IMG/VR virus record: IMGVR_UViG_3300007540_000102
Location: 1-24,095 of that record
Strand: one strand, 5' to 3'
DNA: 24,095 nucleotides
Origin: a virus
The position numbers were made by a program, and so were the translations under genes. The notes under the pieces were generated by a model that was given only the letters and a program-made list of their open reading frames with translations, had not been told where the DNA came from and ran no database searches. Of the stretch, positions 2,288 through 24,095 are shown piece after piece. Every line of letters begins with the position of its first letter. Position 1 is the stretch's first letter.

Positions 2288-3037
2288 TTAATTCTCCAAG
2301 AATTGTTGTAGGTTAGTTATAATTTGTACGCCAGCGTCTCTGGCTTTTTGTGTTTTTTGAGACTCTATACCACTCTCATTAACTAGAATGGTAACGTCTC
2401 GTGTCAAAGAAGCCTTAATCGCGTAACCGTTCTGTTGTAGTATCTCTGAGGCTTCAGCTTTAGTTTTATAAGATTTTAACTTGCCTGAGATACATACTAC
2501 TCCTTTCTGGGCTAGTACGACTTGTGGTTTCTCGAACTTGAAAGAGAATGGATGATCTAGTAGCGCAATGCCATTCTCACTCAGGTATGAAAGTAGGTTG
2601 TCTGTGGCTTTTGGGCCTAAGCCCGCAGCATCACAATTATCTACATTAATATCGTGTATTGTATCGCACACAGTTGCTAATTTTTTAGCTGCTGTGTTGC
2701 CGATCAAAGGGATACTAAGTGCAGGAAGTACTACATTCATTGGCACATTCTTTGATACTTGTATTTCAGCGAAAAGCTTCACACCAATCTTCTCAGATTC
2801 TAGGATAGACACTAAGTCATCTTTAGTCAGCAAGTACAACTCTTGTGAAGTTGTGACCCCTAATTTCTCGATAGCTTTTGGTCCGAGCCCTTTGATCTTG
2901 AGGGTCTTTGCAAAGTGTTCTAGCTTTTTGTGAATTTTTGTACCGCAAGATGTGTTTTTGCAAAACAAAAGATTATTTATGACAACGATAACAGAGTTAC
3001 ACGATGGGCAACTTGTAGGTGGTTCGATATATGTCAT
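2288..3037 (-). CDS. ligB: NAD-dependent DNA ligase, Zn-finger/HhH/BRCT subunit
   Basis: 249 residues equal to the C-terminal third of a bacterial LigA. A four-cysteine zinc finger uses C10, C13, C26 and C31; helix-hairpin-helix repeats follow (IKGLGPKAIEKL near 48-59, and AAGLGPKATDNL further on); a BRCT domain fills the last ~80 residues (VVCISGKLKSYKTKAEASEI). It has no nucleotidyltransferase motif and so should work with the product of 3111-4037 to seal nicks. The split falls between the OB fold and the zinc finger, as in the two-subunit ligase of T5-like phages. Start ATG with AAGGA upstream; its own promoter is at 3064-3092. Confidence 0.88.
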   Translation of the reverse strand: MTYIEPPTSCPSCNSVIVVINNLLFCKNTSCGTKIHKKLEHFAKTLKIKGLGPKAIEKLGVTTSQELYLLTKDDLVSILESEKIGVKLFAEIQVSKNVPMNVVLPALSIPLIGNTAAKKLATVCDTIHDINVDNCDAAGLGPKATDNLLSYLSENGIALLDHPFSFKFEKPQVVLAQKGVVCISGKLKSYKTKAEASEILQQNGYAIKASLTRDVTILVNESGIESQKTQKARDAGVQIITNLQQFLEN

Positions 3038-3063
3038 AGATGATTCCTTAATTTTGAAAAGAT

Positions 3064-3092
3064 ATTATATCGTAAGTTTAAGATAAAGTCAA
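3064..3092 (-). promoter_or_regulatory. Sigma-70 promoter for the second ligase subunit and HTH gene
   Basis: Minus strand TTGACT (3092-3087), 17-base spacer, TATAAT (3069-3064). It lies between the two ligase genes, so the subunits can be transcribed separately. Confidence 0.85.
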
Positions 3093-3110
3093 GAGTTATT
3101 TTTTTATGGG

Positions 3111-4037
3111 TCATACGCGTCTGACGACTCTGGGAATGATCTCCCCAGAGCGAATAATTTCTACGTCACATCCAATCTCTAAGTCCAACTCTCTAATATA
3201 GTCTATATTATGAAGAGTGGCTCTTGACACAGTAGCATCTCCTACCAATACTGGCTCTAGTATTGCAACTGGACTAATAATACCTGATTTACCTACTTGC
3301 CAGACAACATCTAGTAGTTTTGTAACTACACCCACCTGCTTTTCCTTAAGAGCGAACGCTCCATGAGGATGCTTGGCAGTATAGCCTAGAGAGGCAAATA
3401 AGTAGTTATCATTGATACGGTAGACAATACCATCTTGCGGAAAGCCTGCTGTCATATGAGTATGTACAGTGTTGAAGCCTTGAAGGGCTAACCGATCCAT
3501 ATCTTCTGCCCAGCTTACTAAACCGTTATCACACTGTAGCCCGTAGGCGTAAAAGTAAGTAGACCTGCTATCAAACTCTTTAGTACACTTGAGGTTCAGT
3601 GACCCCGCAGCGTAGTTACGAGAGTTTTCAATATTATCAGGAGCTACTAGCTCGCCAGTGATCTGTACTACGCCACTTTCTAGTATTTGTGCAGGTACTC
3701 GCAAAGCCATCTTATCTGTAACATCTCTACCAAAGATACCATCGCCACGCGTAAGAGCTTGAGTAAATTCTCCGTTAATGTAAACTAGAGACACAGCAGC
3801 ACCGTCAAGCTTAGGAGAAGCGATAACGTCTTTACCTAGTACATGAAAGGGCGGGTTCAATATATCGAAACATTTCTGCAAAGAATACATCTGGAACAAA
3901 TGACGAACGCCATCTGTAGGAGTATAACCAACATCATCGTAGTTAAAAACACGAGACAAGAAGTCCCACTCACCGTCACTGATGATAGGATTACCTTCGA
4001 AATAAGCGTGTGCTGCTTTGTCTAAGAACTTCTTCAT
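3111..4037 (-). CDS. ligA: NAD-dependent DNA ligase, adenylation/OB subunit
   Basis: 308 residues covering domain Ia, the nucleotidyltransferase domain and the OB fold of a bacterial NAD-dependent ligase. Seen in order: EGNPIISDGEWD (domain Ia), HLFQMYSLQKCFD, the adenylation motif PKLDGAAVSL with catalytic K76, TRGDGIFGRDVT, an ITGEL strand, RNYAAGSLN, DGIVYRIND, and an OB segment VWQVGKSGIISPVAILEPV ending at IIPRV. It lacks the zinc finger, HhH and BRCT parts, which are encoded next door. Start ATG with GAGG 6 bases upstream and a consensus promoter at 4068-4096. Joins nicks with NAD+ as cofactor during phage replication and repair. Confidence 0.93.
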   Translation of the reverse strand: MKKFLDKAAHAYFEGNPIISDGEWDFLSRVFNYDDVGYTPTDGVRHLFQMYSLQKCFDILNPPFHVLGKDVIASPKLDGAAVSLVYINGEFTQALTRGDGIFGRDVTDKMALRVPAQILESGVVQITGELVAPDNIENSRNYAAGSLNLKCTKEFDSRSTYFYAYGLQCDNGLVSWAEDMDRLALQGFNTVHTHMTAGFPQDGIVYRINDNYLFASLGYTAKHPHGAFALKEKQVGVVTKLLDVVWQVGKSGIISPVAILEPVLVGDATVSRATLHNIDYIRELDLEIGCDVEIIRSGEIIPRVVRRV

Positions 4038-6300: not shown

Positions 6301-6515
6301 TGTCTTTCCTCTTTGGCGTAGAAGTCATCCCAATCTCCAAACAGATCAGGTGCTTGCTCTTTGGCTAGATCCATATGATACTGACCTGGGTAGTGTCTAA
6401 GACATCGACCTGCTTCATCTCTTACGTTTTGGGGGGCGCCTTCATCACGCAGTAACCCAATTAAAAACTTTCTAGTTCTGTTTACGGCATTTCTTCTTTC
6501 ATCAGGCATTGTCAT
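6297..6515 (-). CDS. BPSL0761-like small protein (MTMPDER start)
   Basis: 72 residues beginning MTMPDERRNAVNRTRKFL, with a later LRHYPGQ. This matches a small family found in phages and proteobacterial genomes whose members start MTMPDERTRAV and carry an LLRHYP motif; the function is unknown. Predicted mostly helical. The stop overlaps the ATG of the next gene, and its own start overlaps the end of the gene at 6502. Confidence 0.75.
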   Translation of the reverse strand: MTMPDERRNAVNRTRKFLIGLLRDEGAPQNVRDEAGRCLRHYPGQYHMDLAKEQAPDLFGDWDDFYAKEERQ

Positions 6516-6822
6516 TCTTTATCTTCTCCTTTTCCCATTCTTTTGCCATATGATCATAATGGCGTTGAGTAAATACTTCACCACAAACACATAGCTTCTT
6601 AATTTCACAGTGTCGTGAGCAATTTGGTGAGAGTGTGTTCTCATACTGTGCAAGTGTGCGATCTTCTTCTTTTTGAACCAGCAATCTCAAGTCTCCTAAC
6701 TCACGCAGTGCCTTAGCATTCAAATCTAAATTCCAATACAGAATATATAGTGCTGACGAAAGGTTAGGTGTTGCGACTAACGCTTCTACAAGAGTCATCT
6801 TCTTATCTTTAGGATCTGTCAT
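6502..6822 (-). CDS. Hypothetical protein with a cysteine cluster
   Basis: 106 residues from the ATG at 6822, which overlaps the upstream stop as ATGA; an in-frame TTG 15 bases earlier is less likely. The C-terminal half holds CSRHCEIKKLCVCGEVF, a tight Cys cluster (C-x3-C-x5-C-x-C) that could bind zinc, followed by an HYDHMAKEWEKEK helix. The N-terminal half is helical. I do not recognise the family. Member of the 9121-5328 operon. Confidence 0.65.
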   Translation of the reverse strand: MTDPKDKKMTLVEALVATPNLSSALYILYWNLDLNAKALRELGDLRLLVQKEEDRTLAQYENTLSPNCSRHCEIKKLCVCGEVFTQRHYDHMAKEWEKEKIKNDNA

Positions 6823-7130
6823 AATAAATTTTTCCAATCTGTGTCTTCAGGCATCATCTCCACTTTGTCGCCAAAGCGTGATACTATATCATTGTAGATT
6901 CCTGCTGTGGCCATTCTTAGTCCGTATGCTCCTTTTTGACAAACATACAATGATCCACTATTACCATAGAAGTCTACTTGATCTTTTCGTTCAAATACTA
7001 TGTTGATACCGCTATTCAATCGCCAAGAATCACCATAAAGATAACCACCACTCCATCCTGCTAAGACTTTGTAGATGACATCAGTCTCTGTGGTTATCTT
7101 CAGTACGACCCAACTATCAGGATGCGTCAT
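6819..7130 (-). CDS. Conserved phage hypothetical (GWSGGYLYGDSWRLNSG)
   Basis: 103 residues from the ATG at 7130, supported by GAGGAA 7 bases upstream; a longer upstream reading lacks a ribosome site. The motif KVLAGWSGGYLYGDSWRLNSG and the later GNSGSLYVCQKGAYGLRM recur in a family of phage hypotheticals I recognise from environmental phages. Beta-rich by composition, soluble. No catalytic signature seen. Overlaps neighbours on both sides. Confidence 0.72.
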   Translation of the reverse strand: MTHPDSWVVLKITTETDVIYKVLAGWSGGYLYGDSWRLNSGINIVFERKDQVDFYGNSGSLYVCQKGAYGLRMATAGIYNDIVSRFGDKVEMMPEDTDWKNLL

Positions 7131-10580: not shown

Positions 10581-10997
10581 CTATAGAATGTCTACGTTGA
10601 TGGGCTTGTCTGCATCAGGGACTACTTCGTTTAAATCTATACACAAGAGACCGCGCTCCATGTATGCTTTAGTCAACTTTATGTAGTCTCCAACCTTAAA
10701 ATTTCTTTGAAAACCTTTTCCACTTAATCCTTTATGAACATAAGTTTCATCGTTCTCTGCCTTTTCACGTTTACCTTCTATAGTTAAGACGTTCTTGTGC
10801 ATTACTATAGATACATCCGACTTGTCCCAGCCTGGTATTGCAAGCTCTATACGATAACCTGCATCACCCACTTTTACGACGTTGTATCGGGGGTATCCTG
10901 AGTCTGCTGCATTTGAAAACATCTCAGATTGTAGACGGTCAAACCCTAGAAAAAATTTCGGAAAGTCTGCCATTGTTAATTGATTTTGTAAAGTCAT
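10581..10997 (-). CDS. Small heat shock protein (Hsp20/IbpA-like)
   Basis: 138 residues from the ATG at 10997, with GGAG 7 bases upstream. The alpha-crystallin domain runs from about residue 35 to 130: YNVVKVGDAGYRIELAIPGW, VLTIEGKREK, then GFQRNFKVGDYIKLTKAYM and GLLCIDL. It ends KPINVDIL, the usual IxI-type C-terminal anchor. Acts as a holdase for unfolded proteins, perhaps protecting virion proteins. Small heat shock proteins are known in cyanophages and some T4-like phages. Here the gene sits within the lysis operon, which is less usual. A small hairpin (GCAC..GTGC) lies just before the ribosome site. Confidence 0.87.
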   Translation of the reverse strand: MTLQNQLTMADFPKFFLGFDRLQSEMFSNAADSGYPRYNVVKVGDAGYRIELAIPGWDKSDVSIVMHKNVLTIEGKREKAENDETYVHKGLSGKGFQRNFKVGDYIKLTKAYMERGLLCIDLNEVVPDADKPINVDIL

Positions 10998-11071
10998 TAT
11001 ATTACTCCGTTGCACCCTTGCGGCGTGCTCTGTGAACTCCTTTCGGTAGCTCGGTTAGTTAAGTGACGTTT

Positions 11072-19535: not shown

Positions 19536-19608
19536 GCATTTTCTTATACCGTTTTTGCATATTTGGCGCCGCCCTTATGCCTTTTTAGTCTAAGAAAACG
19601 CTTTACAT
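19529..19608. repeat. 18-bp near-perfect inverted repeat
   Basis: Left arm ATGTAAAGCATTTTCTTA (19529-19546) and right arm TAAGAAAACGCTTTACAT (19591-19608) match at 17 of 18 positions, separated by 44 bases that contain the palindrome GGCGCC. Each arm includes the -35 of an outward-facing promoter, so the element sits symmetrically over divergent promoters. Confidence 0.85.
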
Positions 19609-19630
19609 TTGCGAAAATAATTGATATAAT
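19602..19630 (+). promoter_or_regulatory. Promoter P1 of the PPK2 operon
   Basis: TTTACA (19602-19607), 17-base spacer, TATAAT (19625-19630). First of three tandem promoters before the HTH gene at 19848. Confidence 0.8.
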
Positions 19631-19676
19631 GTGTTTCTGAAATGGGGAAAGGCAAGAGAATCCTAGTCGGCAAAAA

Positions 19677-19690
19677 TGGTAATATTACCA
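19677..19690. promoter_or_regulatory. Palindromic operator TGGTAATATTACCA
   Basis: A perfect 14-bp palindrome preceded by CAAAAA. It ends 1 base before the -35 of P2. A second copy stands before P3. Confidence 0.8.
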
Positions 19691-19691
19691 G

Positions 19692-19720
19692 TTGACAATA
19701 AAGAAAAACCTTGCTATAAT
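19692..19720 (+). promoter_or_regulatory. Promoter P2 of the PPK2 operon
   Basis: TTGACA (19692-19697), 17-base spacer, TATAAT (19715-19720); consensus throughout, with the operator directly upstream. Confidence 0.87.
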
Positions 19721-19757
19721 TCAATTCAGAAATACGGGAAACCAACCCACACAAAAA

Positions 19758-19771
19758 TGGTAAAATTACCA
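19758..19771. promoter_or_regulatory. Second operator copy TGGTAAAATTACCA
   Basis: Same site as at 19677 with one central change, again preceded by ACAAAAA. It ends 11 bases before the -35 of P3. Confidence 0.75.
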
Positions 19772-19782
19772 ACAAATAAAGG

Positions 19783-19811
19783 TTTACAGTCGCGCCTTTA
19801 TTTGATATAAT
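19783..19811 (+). promoter_or_regulatory. Promoter P3 of the PPK2 operon
   Basis: TTTACA (19783-19788), 17-base spacer, TATAAT (19806-19811). Its -10 context TTGATATAAT is the same as in P1. Confidence 0.85.
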
Positions 19812-19847: not shown

Positions 19848-20159
19848 ATGTCAAAATCAGTATACACAGTTGAAATGATCGAAACAATGACCGCTCAAGC
19901 GCCTTTAAACGCTGAAAAGTGTGCGGCCTTGGCTACAGAATTCGGTCTTGGTATTACAAGCCGCTCCGTTATTGCAAAAGCAAAAAGTGCGGGCATTGAC
20001 TACGAAGTCAAAGCAAAACCAGCTCGCAAAAAAGCGGCAGTCTCAAAGCTGGATATTGTCAAAGCAATTACAAAAGCGGTAGATGCGGATGATGGTTCGC
20101 TAGACGGCTTGCTAAAAGCTCCAGCGTCGGCATTGTCTGCTTTGTTGAGTAACGTGTAA
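19848..20159 (+). CDS. HTH DNA-binding protein, paralogue family member
   Basis: 103 residues with the family plan: N-terminal HTH-like domain (~1-52; VEMIETMTAQAPLNAEKCAA to TSRSVIAKAKSAGIDYEVK), a KPARKKAA linker, and a C-terminal helical domain (SKLDIVKAITKAVDADDGSL ... APASALSALLSNV). Its C-terminus resembles that of 16585-16905. Ribosome site GGAG. It is the first gene after three promoters and two palindromic operators, so autoregulation through those sites is an attractive guess. Codon use is less CTA/AGA-rich than in the paralogues to the left. Confidence 0.8.
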   Translation: MSKSVYTVEMIETMTAQAPLNAEKCAALATEFGLGITSRSVIAKAKSAGIDYEVKAKPARKKAAVSKLDIVKAITKAVDADDGSLDGLLKAPASALSALLSNV

Positions 20160-20354
20160 ATGGTAGCCTTAGCTGGCTGGATTGGTGCGGGGCTTTTATG
20201 CCTCGCCCCATTCTTAATAAATTACACAATCGGTAAAATTTTCGCAATTGTTGGTTTAGCATTATTGACCACCCAAGCGGTAGAGCAAAAAATGCACAAT
20301 TTAATTGTTTTAAATATTGTCGGTATTATTGGTTATATTTGGAGTTTAGTTTAA
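20160..20354 (+). CDS. Two-segment membrane protein
   Basis: 64 residues: GWIGAGLLCLAPFLIN and IGKIFAIVGLALLTT, then VEQKMHNLIVLNIVGIIGYIW, giving two or three membrane segments and little outside them. The ATG follows the previous stop directly and no ribosome site is seen, so translation is coupled. Family not recognised; inner-membrane location inferred. Confidence 0.65.
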   Translation: MVALAGWIGAGLLCLAPFLINYTIGKIFAIVGLALLTTQAVEQKMHNLIVLNIVGIIGYIWSLV

Positions 20355-20833
20355 TGTTATATATTTTTGATTTAGATCACACAGTGATTGATAGCTCGCA
20401 CCGTCAATTGACTCGTGCAGATGGTTCGCTTGATTTAGATAACTGGATAGAGAATTGCACCCATGAAAAAATTATGCAAGATCGTCTCTTACCCTTGGCT
20501 GCTAGTTTCAAAAGGTTTATCAAAGATCCTAGCAAAAAAACGGCAATCTGTACGGCTCGCGTATTATCAAAGCCAGATTATGAATTTTTGGCTTTACACA
20601 ATATGCAACCCGATTATATTATGTCCCGTTCTATTGGCGATAATCGTGCAGATGATCGCATGAAGTTTGCAAAAATATCGCGCTTATTAATTCAGCTCAA
20701 AATCCCGCGTGCTCGCTGGCGTGTTGCGGCTTGTATCATTGACGACAATTTGTCTGTTCTAAAAATGGCAGAGAATGAATTAAAAATAAACGCTCTTAAT
20801 GCAATTGACCTAAACCAAAAATTACAGGCTTAA
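20354..20833 (+). CDS. HAD-superfamily phosphatase
   Basis: 159 residues from the ATG at 20354 (TAATG overlap, GGAG 9 bases upstream). Motif I is FDLDHTVID with D6 and D8; motif II is TAICTAR with T67; a Lys near 104 (DRMKFAK) can serve as motif III; motif IV is IIDDN with D130 and D131. All catalytic positions for a HAD phosphohydrolase are present. The substrate is open: the phosphatase domain of phage polynucleotide kinase and small nucleotidases are of this type. Linked to an exonuclease and a PPK2-like kinase, so a nucleotide or nucleic-acid end substrate is plausible. Confidence 0.82.
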   Translation: MLYIFDLDHTVIDSSHRQLTRADGSLDLDNWIENCTHEKIMQDRLLPLAASFKRFIKDPSKKTAICTARVLSKPDYEFLALHNMQPDYIMSRSIGDNRADDRMKFAKISRLLIQLKIPRARWRVAACIIDDNLSVLKMAENELKINALNAIDLNQKLQA

Positions 20834-20836
20834 ATT

Positions 20837-21547
20837 ATGAAAAACGTGATTCTAACATTAGACACCGAAACGGCTGATTTATCTGGTAATGTTTATGACC
20901 TTGGCTATATCATACACGACAAAGATGGGAACCAGCTTACCAGCTATAACGCCTTAGTATCTGAGATTTTCACACAGCCAAAAATTATGATGGGCGCATT
21001 TTACGCTAAAAAATTGTTCTCGCATTATGCACCCATGTTAGACAATAGCGAAATCACAATGAAGCCTTGGCAAGAAATCATTGATCAATTGAGATCGGAT
21101 ATTGTAGAGTATAACGTAACGACAATAGCCGCCTATAATATCGGCTTTGATATGCGGGCAATGTCCAACACCCATAAAAGCCTAACGGGAGAAGATCGCG
21201 TTTTACAGTCTAAAATGCAGGTCTTGGATATATGGCAATTCGCTTGCGAAGCAAAGCTAAAAAGCCGCAATTATAAAAAGATTGCAGAATCATTCGGTTG
21301 GGTATCACCCAAGGGCAACATTAAGACAGGCGCAGAATTCGCTTATCGTTTTTGTTCAGGTGATCATGGCTTTATCGAAGATCATACAGCCCTAAGTGAT
21401 TGCGTTATTGAGGTAGAGATATTGCGCCAATGTTTCAAAACAAAAAAGAAGATACCCTATAACGTATATAATAAAGCGCCTTGGCGTTTAGTAAACCCAA
21501 GCGCAAAAGGCAAAGATAAAAATATCCACGGGAGTATAGTTGCATGA
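20837..21547 (+). CDS. DEDDh-family 3'-5' exonuclease (DnaQ-like)
   Basis: 236 residues. Exo I is LTLDTETADL (D9, E11); Exo II is AAYNIGFDMRAM (D105); Exo III is HTALSDCVIEVEIL (H183, D188): the full DEDDh set for a two-metal exonuclease. No polymerase domain is attached, so it is a stand-alone enzyme acting on DNA or RNA 3' ends. Its ribosome site is weak, and its last codon overlaps the next ATG (ATGA), coupling it to the PPK2-like gene. Confidence 0.86.
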   Translation: MKNVILTLDTETADLSGNVYDLGYIIHDKDGNQLTSYNALVSEIFTQPKIMMGAFYAKKLFSHYAPMLDNSEITMKPWQEIIDQLRSDIVEYNVTTIAAYNIGFDMRAMSNTHKSLTGEDRVLQSKMQVLDIWQFACEAKLKSRNYKKIAESFGWVSPKGNIKTGAEFAYRFCSGDHGFIEDHTALSDCVIEVEILRQCFKTKKKIPYNVYNKAPWRLVNPSAKGKDKNIHGSIVA

Positions 21548-22167
21548 ATTCATTAGAGAGAGAGCAAGCCAAGCTCAACAAATTAGCAGAAAAAAATCGG
21601 GGGCGTATCGCTGTTATATTAGAGGGGCGCGATACGGCAGGAAAAACGGGAACAATCCGAACGCTTACACAATACCTTAATCCGCAATGGTTCAGTGTAT
21701 GCTTATCATCTAAGCCTAGCGCGCACGCTATGGATAATTGGCTGGCATCATGGCTCAAGAAAATGCCCGCTGATAATCAAATAGTATTCTATGATCGCTC
21801 TTGGTATAGTCGCGCCTTGGTTCAACCTGTTAATGGTTGGTGTAGTGATAAGCAATATAGTAATTTTATGAAGTCCGTTCTAATATGGGAAAAGAAAAAG
21901 CCTATCACGTTTATTAAAATGTGGTTGTCTATTTCAGAAGTTGAACAGTTAGCTAGAATTAATCACCGCGAAGTATCACCGCTCAAGTATTGGAAGCTAT
22001 CAGAGAATGATAAAATGGCAGTCGAAAAATATAATGCTATGAGTATTAAAAAAGAATCTATGGTTAATAATTGCGGCGATTGGTTCAGTATAAATTACAA
22101 TGATAAAAGTGCAGGACGTTTAGCGTTTATAAAAAGATTAAACAAGGAGTTAGAGAAGATCGTTTAA
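21544..22167 (+). CDS. ppk2: Polyphosphate kinase 2 (PPK2)-like kinase
   Basis: 207 residues, PPK2 fold. Walker A is ILEGRDTAGKTGT (GRDxAGKxG at ~28-36), Walker B and lid start are FYDRSWYSR (82-90), then IKMWLSISEVEQLARI and the family block SPLKYWKLSENDKMA (~145-159). A final INYNDKSAGRLAFIKRLNKE matches the terminal helix. Somewhat short for PPK2 (usually about 230-300). PPK2 enzymes transfer phosphate between polyphosphate and nucleotides, making NDP or NTP from NMP or NDP. In a phage this could draw on host polyphosphate for nucleotide supply, or deplete it. Last gene of the operon, followed by a large hairpin. Confidence 0.9.
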   Translation: MNSLEREQAKLNKLAEKNRGRIAVILEGRDTAGKTGTIRTLTQYLNPQWFSVCLSSKPSAHAMDNWLASWLKKMPADNQIVFYDRSWYSRALVQPVNGWCSDKQYSNFMKSVLIWEKKKPITFIKMWLSISEVEQLARINHREVSPLKYWKLSENDKMAVEKYNAMSIKKESMVNNCGDWFSINYNDKSAGRLAFIKRLNKELEKIV

Positions 22168-22169
22168 GC

Positions 22170-22225
22170 CTATAAAACAAGGGGTTTTTGAATAAAAAAA
22201 TGTTCAAAAACACCTTGTTTTATAG
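22170..22225. terminator. 23-bp-stem hairpin, probable bidirectional terminator
   Basis: CTATAAAACAAGG and following bases (22170-22192) pair with 22203-22225 over 23 positions with one mismatch; the loop is 10 bases, mostly A. It starts 3 bases after the PPK2 stop. The stem itself contains five T after GGGG, so it can work as an intrinsic terminator. It also marks the right edge of the block with unusual composition. Confidence 0.75.
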
Positions 22226-22282
22226 TGTTAAATGACCACCTTATGCCCTTACCTAAAAAGTCACAGACCTACATGGACAGAT

Positions 22283-22481: not shown

Positions 22482-22510
22482 TTGACAAATTTCTTAAAAT
22501 TAAGTATAAT
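22482..22510 (+). promoter_or_regulatory. Sigma-70 promoter of the tail-protein genes
   Basis: TTGACA (22482-22487), 17-base spacer, TATAAT (22505-22510), followed by GAAGGAG and the ATG at 22537. Confidence 0.87.
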
Positions 22511-22536: not shown

Positions 22537-22881
22537 ATGGCTTTTGGACTGCAAGTATACGACAGAGACGAAAACCTACTAATGGACACAAGTTCTAAAA
22601 GTTGGATGCAGGTGGCCGTCTTAAATATACCTTCAGGAGATACCGCCTCGACAATATATTTCAGTGGAAACAGTTTACCCGCAGGCATGGAGCTTAGAGT
22701 AGCCTTGCAAATTATAAGCGATGTGCCTGTTGACGAAAAACAACTGGTACCTACCGTATCGATCAATACCAGTGTACGATCAGTTCTTATTACAAGTACT
22801 TCAGGCACTACCACAAACTCAGAGAATAATACTTTTAACGCATATAGTGCAGCGTGCAAAATACTAATACTAGGAAGATAA
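22537..22881 (+). CDS. Small tail-associated protein (DUF6453-like)
   Basis: 114 residues. Start MAFGLQVYDRDENLLMDTSS, then mostly beta strands (AVLNIPSGDTASTIYFSG, LRVALQIISDV, VRSVLITSTSG) and a final SAACKILILGR. Small proteins beginning 'M(A/S)FGLQVxDxxGxxxxDTS' are found next to tail-fibre genes in several phages. Consensus promoter and AAGGAG. The next protein starts with a similar MAYGF, so the two may share an N-terminal strand motif. Likely a virion appendage component, inferred from context. Confidence 0.62.
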   Translation: MAFGLQVYDRDENLLMDTSSKSWMQVAVLNIPSGDTASTIYFSGNSLPAGMELRVALQIISDVPVDEKQLVPTVSINTSVRSVLITSTSGTTTNSENNTFNAYSAACKILILGR

Positions 22882-22884
22882 GAT

Positions 22885-24095
22885 ATGGCATATGGGTTTG
22901 TTTCAAAAAACGACGATGATGAGTACTTAATTACTGATCAAACTACAAACTTAACTTTTGTAAAAAGAATCCTCAGCCCCGACTATAGTAGAAGTACTTC
23001 ACCTAAATCAGGCTTTGGAGGCTTTACCTTATTTAACTATACGGTAAGTAACTGTAGTTCACTCCCTATACCTTTCTTTACCACACCCTTCTCGGGCAAA
23101 TCTTATGCCGTAACGCAGGTGTTTCCTACAGGCAATGATAACGAGTGGAACATAGAATTAATATCGAATACACGACCGGAAGACCAGGCCAACTATGTGC
23201 CCCCTCTAATTGTTACTACCCCTGCACAAGGGTTCGATATGACCCTAGAGCAGTTCTTTCTGCCTGAAGAGTGGGAAACTCCTATATGGCCGGATAGCAC
23301 TAGTGCCTCTGGAACAATTGGACAGGTACAGATTATACCTGAAAACTACGGTGAGGGACTCACAACTGGACGAGGCCTTAGTAGAGGTGCAATGGTTCTG
23401 TGCAGCGACTACTCTTCCTATAACACTTCTACTAGTAGCGTTACTCGAGCCTATCAGCAAGAGCACATACCTCAAGGCCGTAGAGTTGAATTTTCAAACA
23501 TACTAAGAACTGGTCAGTATCTTTCTTGGAAAGGCTATTCCTCTGGCGGACGCAACGTTCTTTCGGTTTTTCAGTATAATGGTGGGGATATTGAAGGGAC
23601 TCCAGATACTAATACTGGCTCGGCACCCTACGTACTAACACCTACCGATGCCTCTACTAGGCTTAGTAGTTATATACATAGAATTCACGAGAAAAAGCGT
23701 GCAGATATGTCTTATACTTACCCACTTATCAAAACGGATTCCAATGCCTCCGATTATGTTAATAGTAAGACTAGACTGTACATTAGTCAGTGGTCTTATG
23801 AAAAAATTAAGGTTGGTCAGTACGCAAACTGGCCTAAAAGCATTAGCGATCCTTTTGGTTCTGGCGAGACCTACGTAACCTGGTCAGGCTTCAAGGAAAT
23901 TACAGGCTTGGGGTATAATGCTACCGTAGGGTACTACTTAGAGGTATCTGGTAATCACCCTTGTATGGATTTTGACGATATTACCTGGTACTATAGAAAC
24001 CGGGCACCCGCAGATATTACTATAGGAGGCAGCGTGTTCGAACACTTCAACTTCTACGTACGAGGCTGGCCGGGTGTAAGTGCAACAGCAACGGG
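22885..24095 (+). CDS. Large beta-rich virion protein, probably tail-associated (partial)
   Basis: 403 codons are open to the window end, so the C-terminus is missing. Start MAYGFVSKNDDDEYLITDQT, AGGA 9 bases upstream, 3 bases after the previous stop. The sequence is rich in Thr, Ser, Tyr, Gly and aromatic residues, with no membrane segment or enzyme motif: typical of adhesion or tail-fibre/baseplate-associated proteins. Segments include FNYTVSNCSSLPIPFFTTPF and YLSWKGYSSGGRNVLSVFQY. Codon use returns to the CTA/ACT/AGA-rich style of the main phage genome. Exact role not recognised. Confidence 0.65.
   Translation, partial: MAYGFVSKNDDDEYLITDQTTNLTFVKRILSPDYSRSTSPKSGFGGFTLFNYTVSNCSSLPIPFFTTPFSGKSYAVTQVFPTGNDNEWNIELISNTRPEDQANYVPPLIVTTPAQGFDMTLEQFFLPEEWETPIWPDSTSASGTIGQVQIIPENYGEGLTTGRGLSRGAMVLCSDYSSYNTSTSSVTRAYQQEHIPQGRRVEFSNILRTGQYLSWKGYSSGGRNVLSVFQYNGGDIEGTPDTNTGSAPYVLTPTDASTRLSSYIHRIHEKKRADMSYTYPLIKTDSNASDYVNSKTRLYISQWSYEKIKVGQYANWPKSISDPFGSGETYVTWSGFKEITGLGYNATVGYYLEVSGNHPCMDFDDITWYYRNRAPADITIGGSVFEHFNFYVRGWPGVSATAT

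Follow-up and report, generated by a model that had tools for sequence, protein, structure and literature searches.

In T5, the host DNA is destroyed, the phosphatase Dmp discards the products, and a phage ribonucleotide reductase (RNR) remodels the dNTP pool. The pre-early (first-step-transfer) region of T5 has the order A2, T5.005 (a two-TM protein), A1, T5.003, T5.002 and dmp, and in a Vibrio T5-like phage A2 and A1 are followed by one gene and then by a Dmp-like HAD. T5 Dmp is a deoxynucleoside-5'-monophosphatase, which dephosphorylates dNMPs and blocks the recycling of host nucleotides (PMC12265719; PMC13250531), and it is dispensable in T5 (PMC8108384).

PPK2 enzymes are assigned to class I, II or III by the Asn, Gly or Glu, respectively, that follows Walker B, and those of class I favour GDP and ADP (PMC8776046). 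In the open-licence literature, viral ppk genes are reported only as metagenomic cargo or auxiliary metabolic genes (PMC13188868). Described here is a phage operon that joins a homologue of Dmp to a DEDDh exonuclease and a PPK2. We read it, with a probability of about one half, as a marine form of the pre-early takeover region of T5-like phages, in which PPK2 charges (d)NDPs from host polyphosphate.

The phage and the layout of its operon

The window, the whole 24 kb viral record that was analysed, was extended by two near-identical contigs and has essentially no DNA-level similarity to phage records. The portal, taken from one near-identical contig (41% identity), a subunit of the NAD-ligase (46%) and DnaB (31%) are each closest to T5-like phages, and by these homologies the phage is T5-like. 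The NAD-dependent DNA ligase is apparently split into two genes (window 2288-4037), as in T5-like phages; the 3111-4037 half was the one searched. An Hsp20-like small heat-shock protein is also encoded (10581-11015; PF00011, E=4.8e-14). Cellular matches to the PPK2 have at most 42% identity and indicate no host.

The sequence-only reading had described five coupled genes that overlap, abut or lie no more than 3 bases apart, and all five ORFs were confirmed at the same positions as one transcription unit (window 19848-22167; Table 1). The membrane-protein gene abuts the HTH gene (TAA/ATG) and is overlapped at its end by the start of the HAD gene (TAATG); 3 bases separate the HAD and exonuclease genes, and an ATGA overlap joins the exonuclease and PPK2 genes.

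Table 1. Features of the operon in window coordinates, with the A4 family in the coordinates given for its loci
Feature	Position	Strand	Basis or detail
Three tandem near-consensus sigma-70 promoters	19602..19811	+	TG ahead of each -10 (extended -10)
Promoter 1	19602-19630	+	TTTACA-17-TATAAT
Palindrome, perfect, operator-like	19677..19690	.	TGGTAATATTACCA; immediately ahead of promoter 2
Promoter 2	19692-19720	+	TTGACA-17-TATAAT
Palindrome, second copy	19758..19771	.	TGGTAAAATTACCA
Promoter 3	19783-19811	+	TTTACA-17-TATAAT
Small DNA-binding protein, D5/A2-like (HTH), 103 aa	19848..20159	+	PHROG and T5 A2 profile match
Small hydrophobic, probably membrane protein, 64 aa	20160..20354	+	Position and sequence kept in 41 loci
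HAD phosphatase, T5 Dmp homologue, 159 aa	20354..20833	+	BLASTP, family profile, phrog_415, predicted structure
DEDDh 3'-5' exonuclease, 236 aa, phrog_20187	20837..21547	+	Residues, fold, PHROG
Viral PPK2, 207 aa	21544..22167	+	Walker A EGRDTAGKT, Walker B DRSWYS; Pfam, NCBIfam, PDB sequence search
Strong hairpin after PPK2	22167..22228	+	-30.2 kcal/mol, z=-9.0
A4 protein (L064, L065, L067, L068)	6471-7031
A4 protein (L066)	6471-7064

Promoters of comparable quality lie upstream of the HTH gene in 24/69 related loci against 0.4 expected from simple shuffles; duplicates of a contig were left in this count. The two operator-like palindromes in the promoter region of the window read TGGTAAWATTACCA, and an identical or near-identical palindrome (TGGTAAWWTTACCA) precedes the operon in L013, L015, L064, L065, L067 and L068. 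Its recurrence in several lineages suggests a shared, putative operator. The hairpin after PPK2 is probably a terminator or an RNA-stabilising end, and a terminator scan of the window did not list it. Another perfect consensus sigma-70 promoter (22482-22510) stands ahead of the next gene (22537).

The first gene had been called an HTH regulator. Its product has no Pfam match and is assigned by its match to the D5-like phrog_323 (E=3e-4) and by that of its family profile to T5 A2 (E=8e-11). The small membrane protein occupies a place analogous to that of T5.005, and its family has no detectable similarity to that protein. A2-like and Dmp genes occur together in this T5-like phage, the combination that marks the T5 pre-early region.

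The HAD phosphatase and the exonuclease

The HAD protein has the catalytic motifs D-x-D, T-A-R and D-D, and shares DLDxT, S-x-H-R, TAR and DD with T5 Dmp, which it matches by BLASTP (E=5e-18) and by family profile (E=2e-30). On this homology it is assigned to the T5 Dmp family; dNMP phosphatase activity is established for T5 Dmp only. It falls in phrog_415, for which the PHROG label of polynucleotide kinase is misleading, given that T5 Dmp is a member.

The predicted structure (pLDDT 95) has a PNKP-type HAD fold. The top fold match and the only PDB profile match (E=0.0096) of the HAD protein are both to bacterial Pnkp1. The 3'-phosphatase domain of T4 Pnkp and of bacterial Pnkp1 has the HAD fold with similar motif spacing and is a distant relative. 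Against the Pfam HAD_PNKP model the protein scores 16.5 bits, below the cut-off of 27.6. A PNKP 3'-phosphatase was an early leading idea for the HAD, and was dropped because T5 Dmp is much closer.

A role of that kind belongs to an alternative in which the operon is a salvage module: a PNKP-like HAD would open nucleic-acid 3' ends for the exonuclease, and PPK2 would rephosphorylate the resulting NMPs from polyphosphate. The fold and the Pnkp1 matches are consistent with such a module, as is the locus L087, where a strong PNKP-type HAD (PF25109, E=2.7e-44) comes after PPK2. It is nevertheless unlikely, since no PNKP approaches the similarity of T5 Dmp to the HAD and Dmp counters salvage. The sequence-only reading had offered salvage or takeover; the takeover and nucleotide theme survives, but rephosphorylation as it was put is not supported, as the HAD is homologous to an enzyme that blocks recycling.

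In the exonuclease, D9, E11, D105, H183 and D188 are invariant among 39 homologues, and the predicted RNase H-like exonuclease fold resembles that of DnaQ, ExoX and Orn. Although it shares this fold and the five catalytic residues with the DnaQ, ExoX and oligoribonuclease DEDDh exonucleases, it has no close characterised relative and forms its own family. Its role could alternatively lie in DNA or RNA processing and not in host degradation. Homologues of 34% identity, annotated as hypothetical proteins, occur in the Enterococcus phages EF1, EF5, H1 and VRE9; in EF1, the one inspected, neither a HAD nor a PPK2 is annotated beside the homologue.

The exonuclease slot is filled in L064-L068, L082, L097, L112 and L154 by an unrelated family of 170-214 aa proteins, A4 (Table 1). 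Most members have an invariant R64 and E133 and a GG-[ST]-EF motif. A4 is possibly another nuclease; five members tried have no Pfam match, and that of L065 has no PHROG match.

The PPK2 and its linkage to the operon

The protein encoded at 21544 matches Pfam PF03976 (E=3.7e-45; 154.7 bits against a cut-off of 22.3) and the PPK2_P_aer model (E=3e-53), and its PDB matches are PPK2 structures (E=4e-34). No other kinase family fits it better, with dTMP kinase reaching only E=0.004 and such models about 40 orders of magnitude weaker. By these matches, what the sequence-only reading had called PPK2-like is a true member of the PPK2 family, with a predicted polyphosphate-dependent activity. Across 27 sequences, D30, G33, K34, R85, S86, Y88, R138 and R142 are invariant, and the Walker A (DxxGK), Walker B (RSxY) and lid (Rx3R) motifs are all present. 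The catalytic residues of PPK2, HAD and exonuclease are intact, as had been claimed.

In comparison with a class I PPK2, FtPPK2 from Francisella (4YEG/5LL0), the Walker A D and K and the Walker B D and R are invariant in both, and the equivalents of the lid arginines R174 and R178 and of K228 are invariant in the viral proteins, but those of H76 and R232 are not conserved. The viral proteins lack the long N-terminal region of class I (about 205 aa versus 250-290), form a separate clade, and have Ser instead of Asn at the signature position. This Ser (DRSWYS) is found in 102/102 viral ORFs read, near-copies included. Cellular relatives mostly have DRSWYN, and a few from marine bacteria (SAR86, Marinimicrobia and others; L156, L164, L165, L170, L203, L223, L227, L231) have Ser or Thr.

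Because the residue is Ser rather than Asn, Gly or Glu, no PPK2 class can be assigned. By sequence (PPK2_P_aer model), the window PPK2 is nearest the NDP-using class I, and with the Ser signature it may prefer either NMPs or NDPs. The altered signature is a point in favour of salvage, but since the nearest class uses NDPs, rephosphorylation of NMPs is not the leading reading. The Ser-signature PPK2s are a new target for probing how PPK2 enzymes select their substrates.

Viral PPK2s form one exclusive clade (SH-aLRT 100), on a long branch with an uncertain root, apart from the cellular and huge-phage PPK2s. In seven pairs dN/dS is 0.03-0.16, and the viral PPK2 is under purifying selection; a dN/dS of 0.09-0.17, where computable, is one sign that the operon is more than chance. 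A homology search found no match to the window PPK2 among cultured T5-like phages. Huge-phage PPK2s (LR756502, LR745206, LR756501) have about 38-42% identity to it, but are longer, carry the Asn signature, have other neighbours and fall with the cellular sequences in the tree. Those of L004, L005 and L006 are long forms of 388-417 aa with the Asn signature, in genomes of 635-735 kb.

The linkage of these genes was followed from both ends. A search centred on the exonuclease gave 51 viral contigs, from which near-copies were then removed. The HAD gene lies directly upstream of the exonuclease gene in 33/35 distinct loci, and the full order of HTH, membrane protein, HAD and exonuclease is kept in 27/34. 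PPK2 is found within 1.7 kb of the exonuclease in 13/22 loci and is absent from at least 9/22; it is therefore accessory to the module. When contigs with no PPK2 beside the exonuclease were searched for a hidden copy elsewhere, 20 of 21 had none, and the single match was the known copy of L043.

The search centred on PPK2 matched 316 viral contigs, of which 80 were kept. Among the 24 distinct loci whose upstream sequence was long enough, a HAD gene lies within 5 kb in 21, accompanied by the exonuclease in 14 and alone in 7, and neither is present in 3. The order can also be exonuclease, HAD, a gap and then PPK2 (L102, L115, L122, L128, L140), and PPK2 sometimes lies 0.1-1 kb or several kb downstream of the other genes; in the contig of L088, HAD and exonuclease are about 7 kb away. 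Dozens of divergent viral contigs share the gene order of the operon, and the counts over distinct loci rule out chance co-location. The genes do travel together, as the sequence-only reading needed, and this recurrence argues for a functional link, with the proviso that contigs from a single lineage do not count as separate events.

The separability of PPK2, its lack in 9/22 exonuclease loci and its variable distance also fit a second alternative, in which PPK2 removes or alters host polyphosphate, to release phosphate or relieve polyphosphate-dependent stress signalling, or sustains ATP and GTP, beside neighbours that form a separate Dmp and exonuclease takeover set. The preference of class I PPK2s for GDP and ADP (PMC8776046) is consistent with it. 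However, the linkage of the Dmp homologue in 21/24 PPK2 loci, in different gene orders, suggests a joint function, and we regard this alternative as improbable. Much more improbable is that chance put PPK2 into an early region as general metabolic cargo. In other viruses ppk genes are reported as auxiliary metabolic genes (PMC13188868), and huge phages have unrelated PPK2s, but a single, exclusive and diverse viral clade, stable linkage and stop/start overlaps argue against recent random cargo.

Proposed mechanism and comparison with T5

Because the HAD is a Dmp homologue and the HTH protein resembles A2, the locus is most likely a marine T5 pre-early takeover region and not plain salvage. For expression timing, all substrates, the direction of reaction and any dependence on host polyphosphate, we infer the following scheme. 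After DNA entry, host RNA polymerase would transcribe the operon from the three strong sigma-70 promoters, under the operator-like palindrome, with the A2/D5-like protein as regulator. The DEDDh exonuclease would digest host nucleic acid from its 3' ends, releasing 5'-(d)NMPs, and take over part of the work of A1. The Dmp homologue would turn dNMPs into nucleosides and phosphate, such that host-derived nucleotides are discarded. PPK2 would charge (d)NDPs to (d)NTPs with host polyphosphate, so that phage DNA synthesis would be supplied from stored phosphate rather than ATP.

Sources of the (d)NDPs would be the host and the RNR that many of these phages encode. The RNR large subunit is present in 11/20 contigs, all of them sister contigs, and was not seen in the window's two near-identical contigs, which are fragments. 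In the contig of L041 (G010, 22831-23938), the RNR large subunit is split over several frames, by decay, introns or sequencing error.

The operon occurs in many uncultured marine T5 relatives, with a virus-specific PPK2. More tentatively, a widespread marine T5-like clade with its own altered-signature PPK2 subfamily might power its dNTP supply directly from host polyphosphate within the takeover programme, making replication independent of host ATP and perhaps also of defences that deplete nucleotides. Takeover and replication may partly run on stored host phosphate. If so, phages would tap polyphosphate for energy and phosphate via a dedicated, conserved enzyme, which is relevant to phosphate-poor ocean water. 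The sequence-only reading knew of no phage system with this combination, and the open-licence literature likewise yielded none, nor any paper that describes a PPK2 clade linked with an operon of Dmp and exonuclease.

Read as the marine equivalent of the T5 takeover region, the operon contains a different nuclease, and the T5 gene for host-DNA degradation was not found. A1 was seen in 0/20 marine contigs, which are fragments, such that A1 could lie elsewhere, and was recovered from the positive controls, T5 and an Aeromonas T5-like phage. The T5 pre-early region lies in a terminal repeat that is transferred first, whereas the window is known from genome fragments only. The HAD is shorter than T5 Dmp, which has 244 aa, and the DEDDh exonuclease and PPK2 are additions relative to T5. 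In common, the two regions have a Dmp homologue, an A2-like protein, strong promoters and T5-like core genes.
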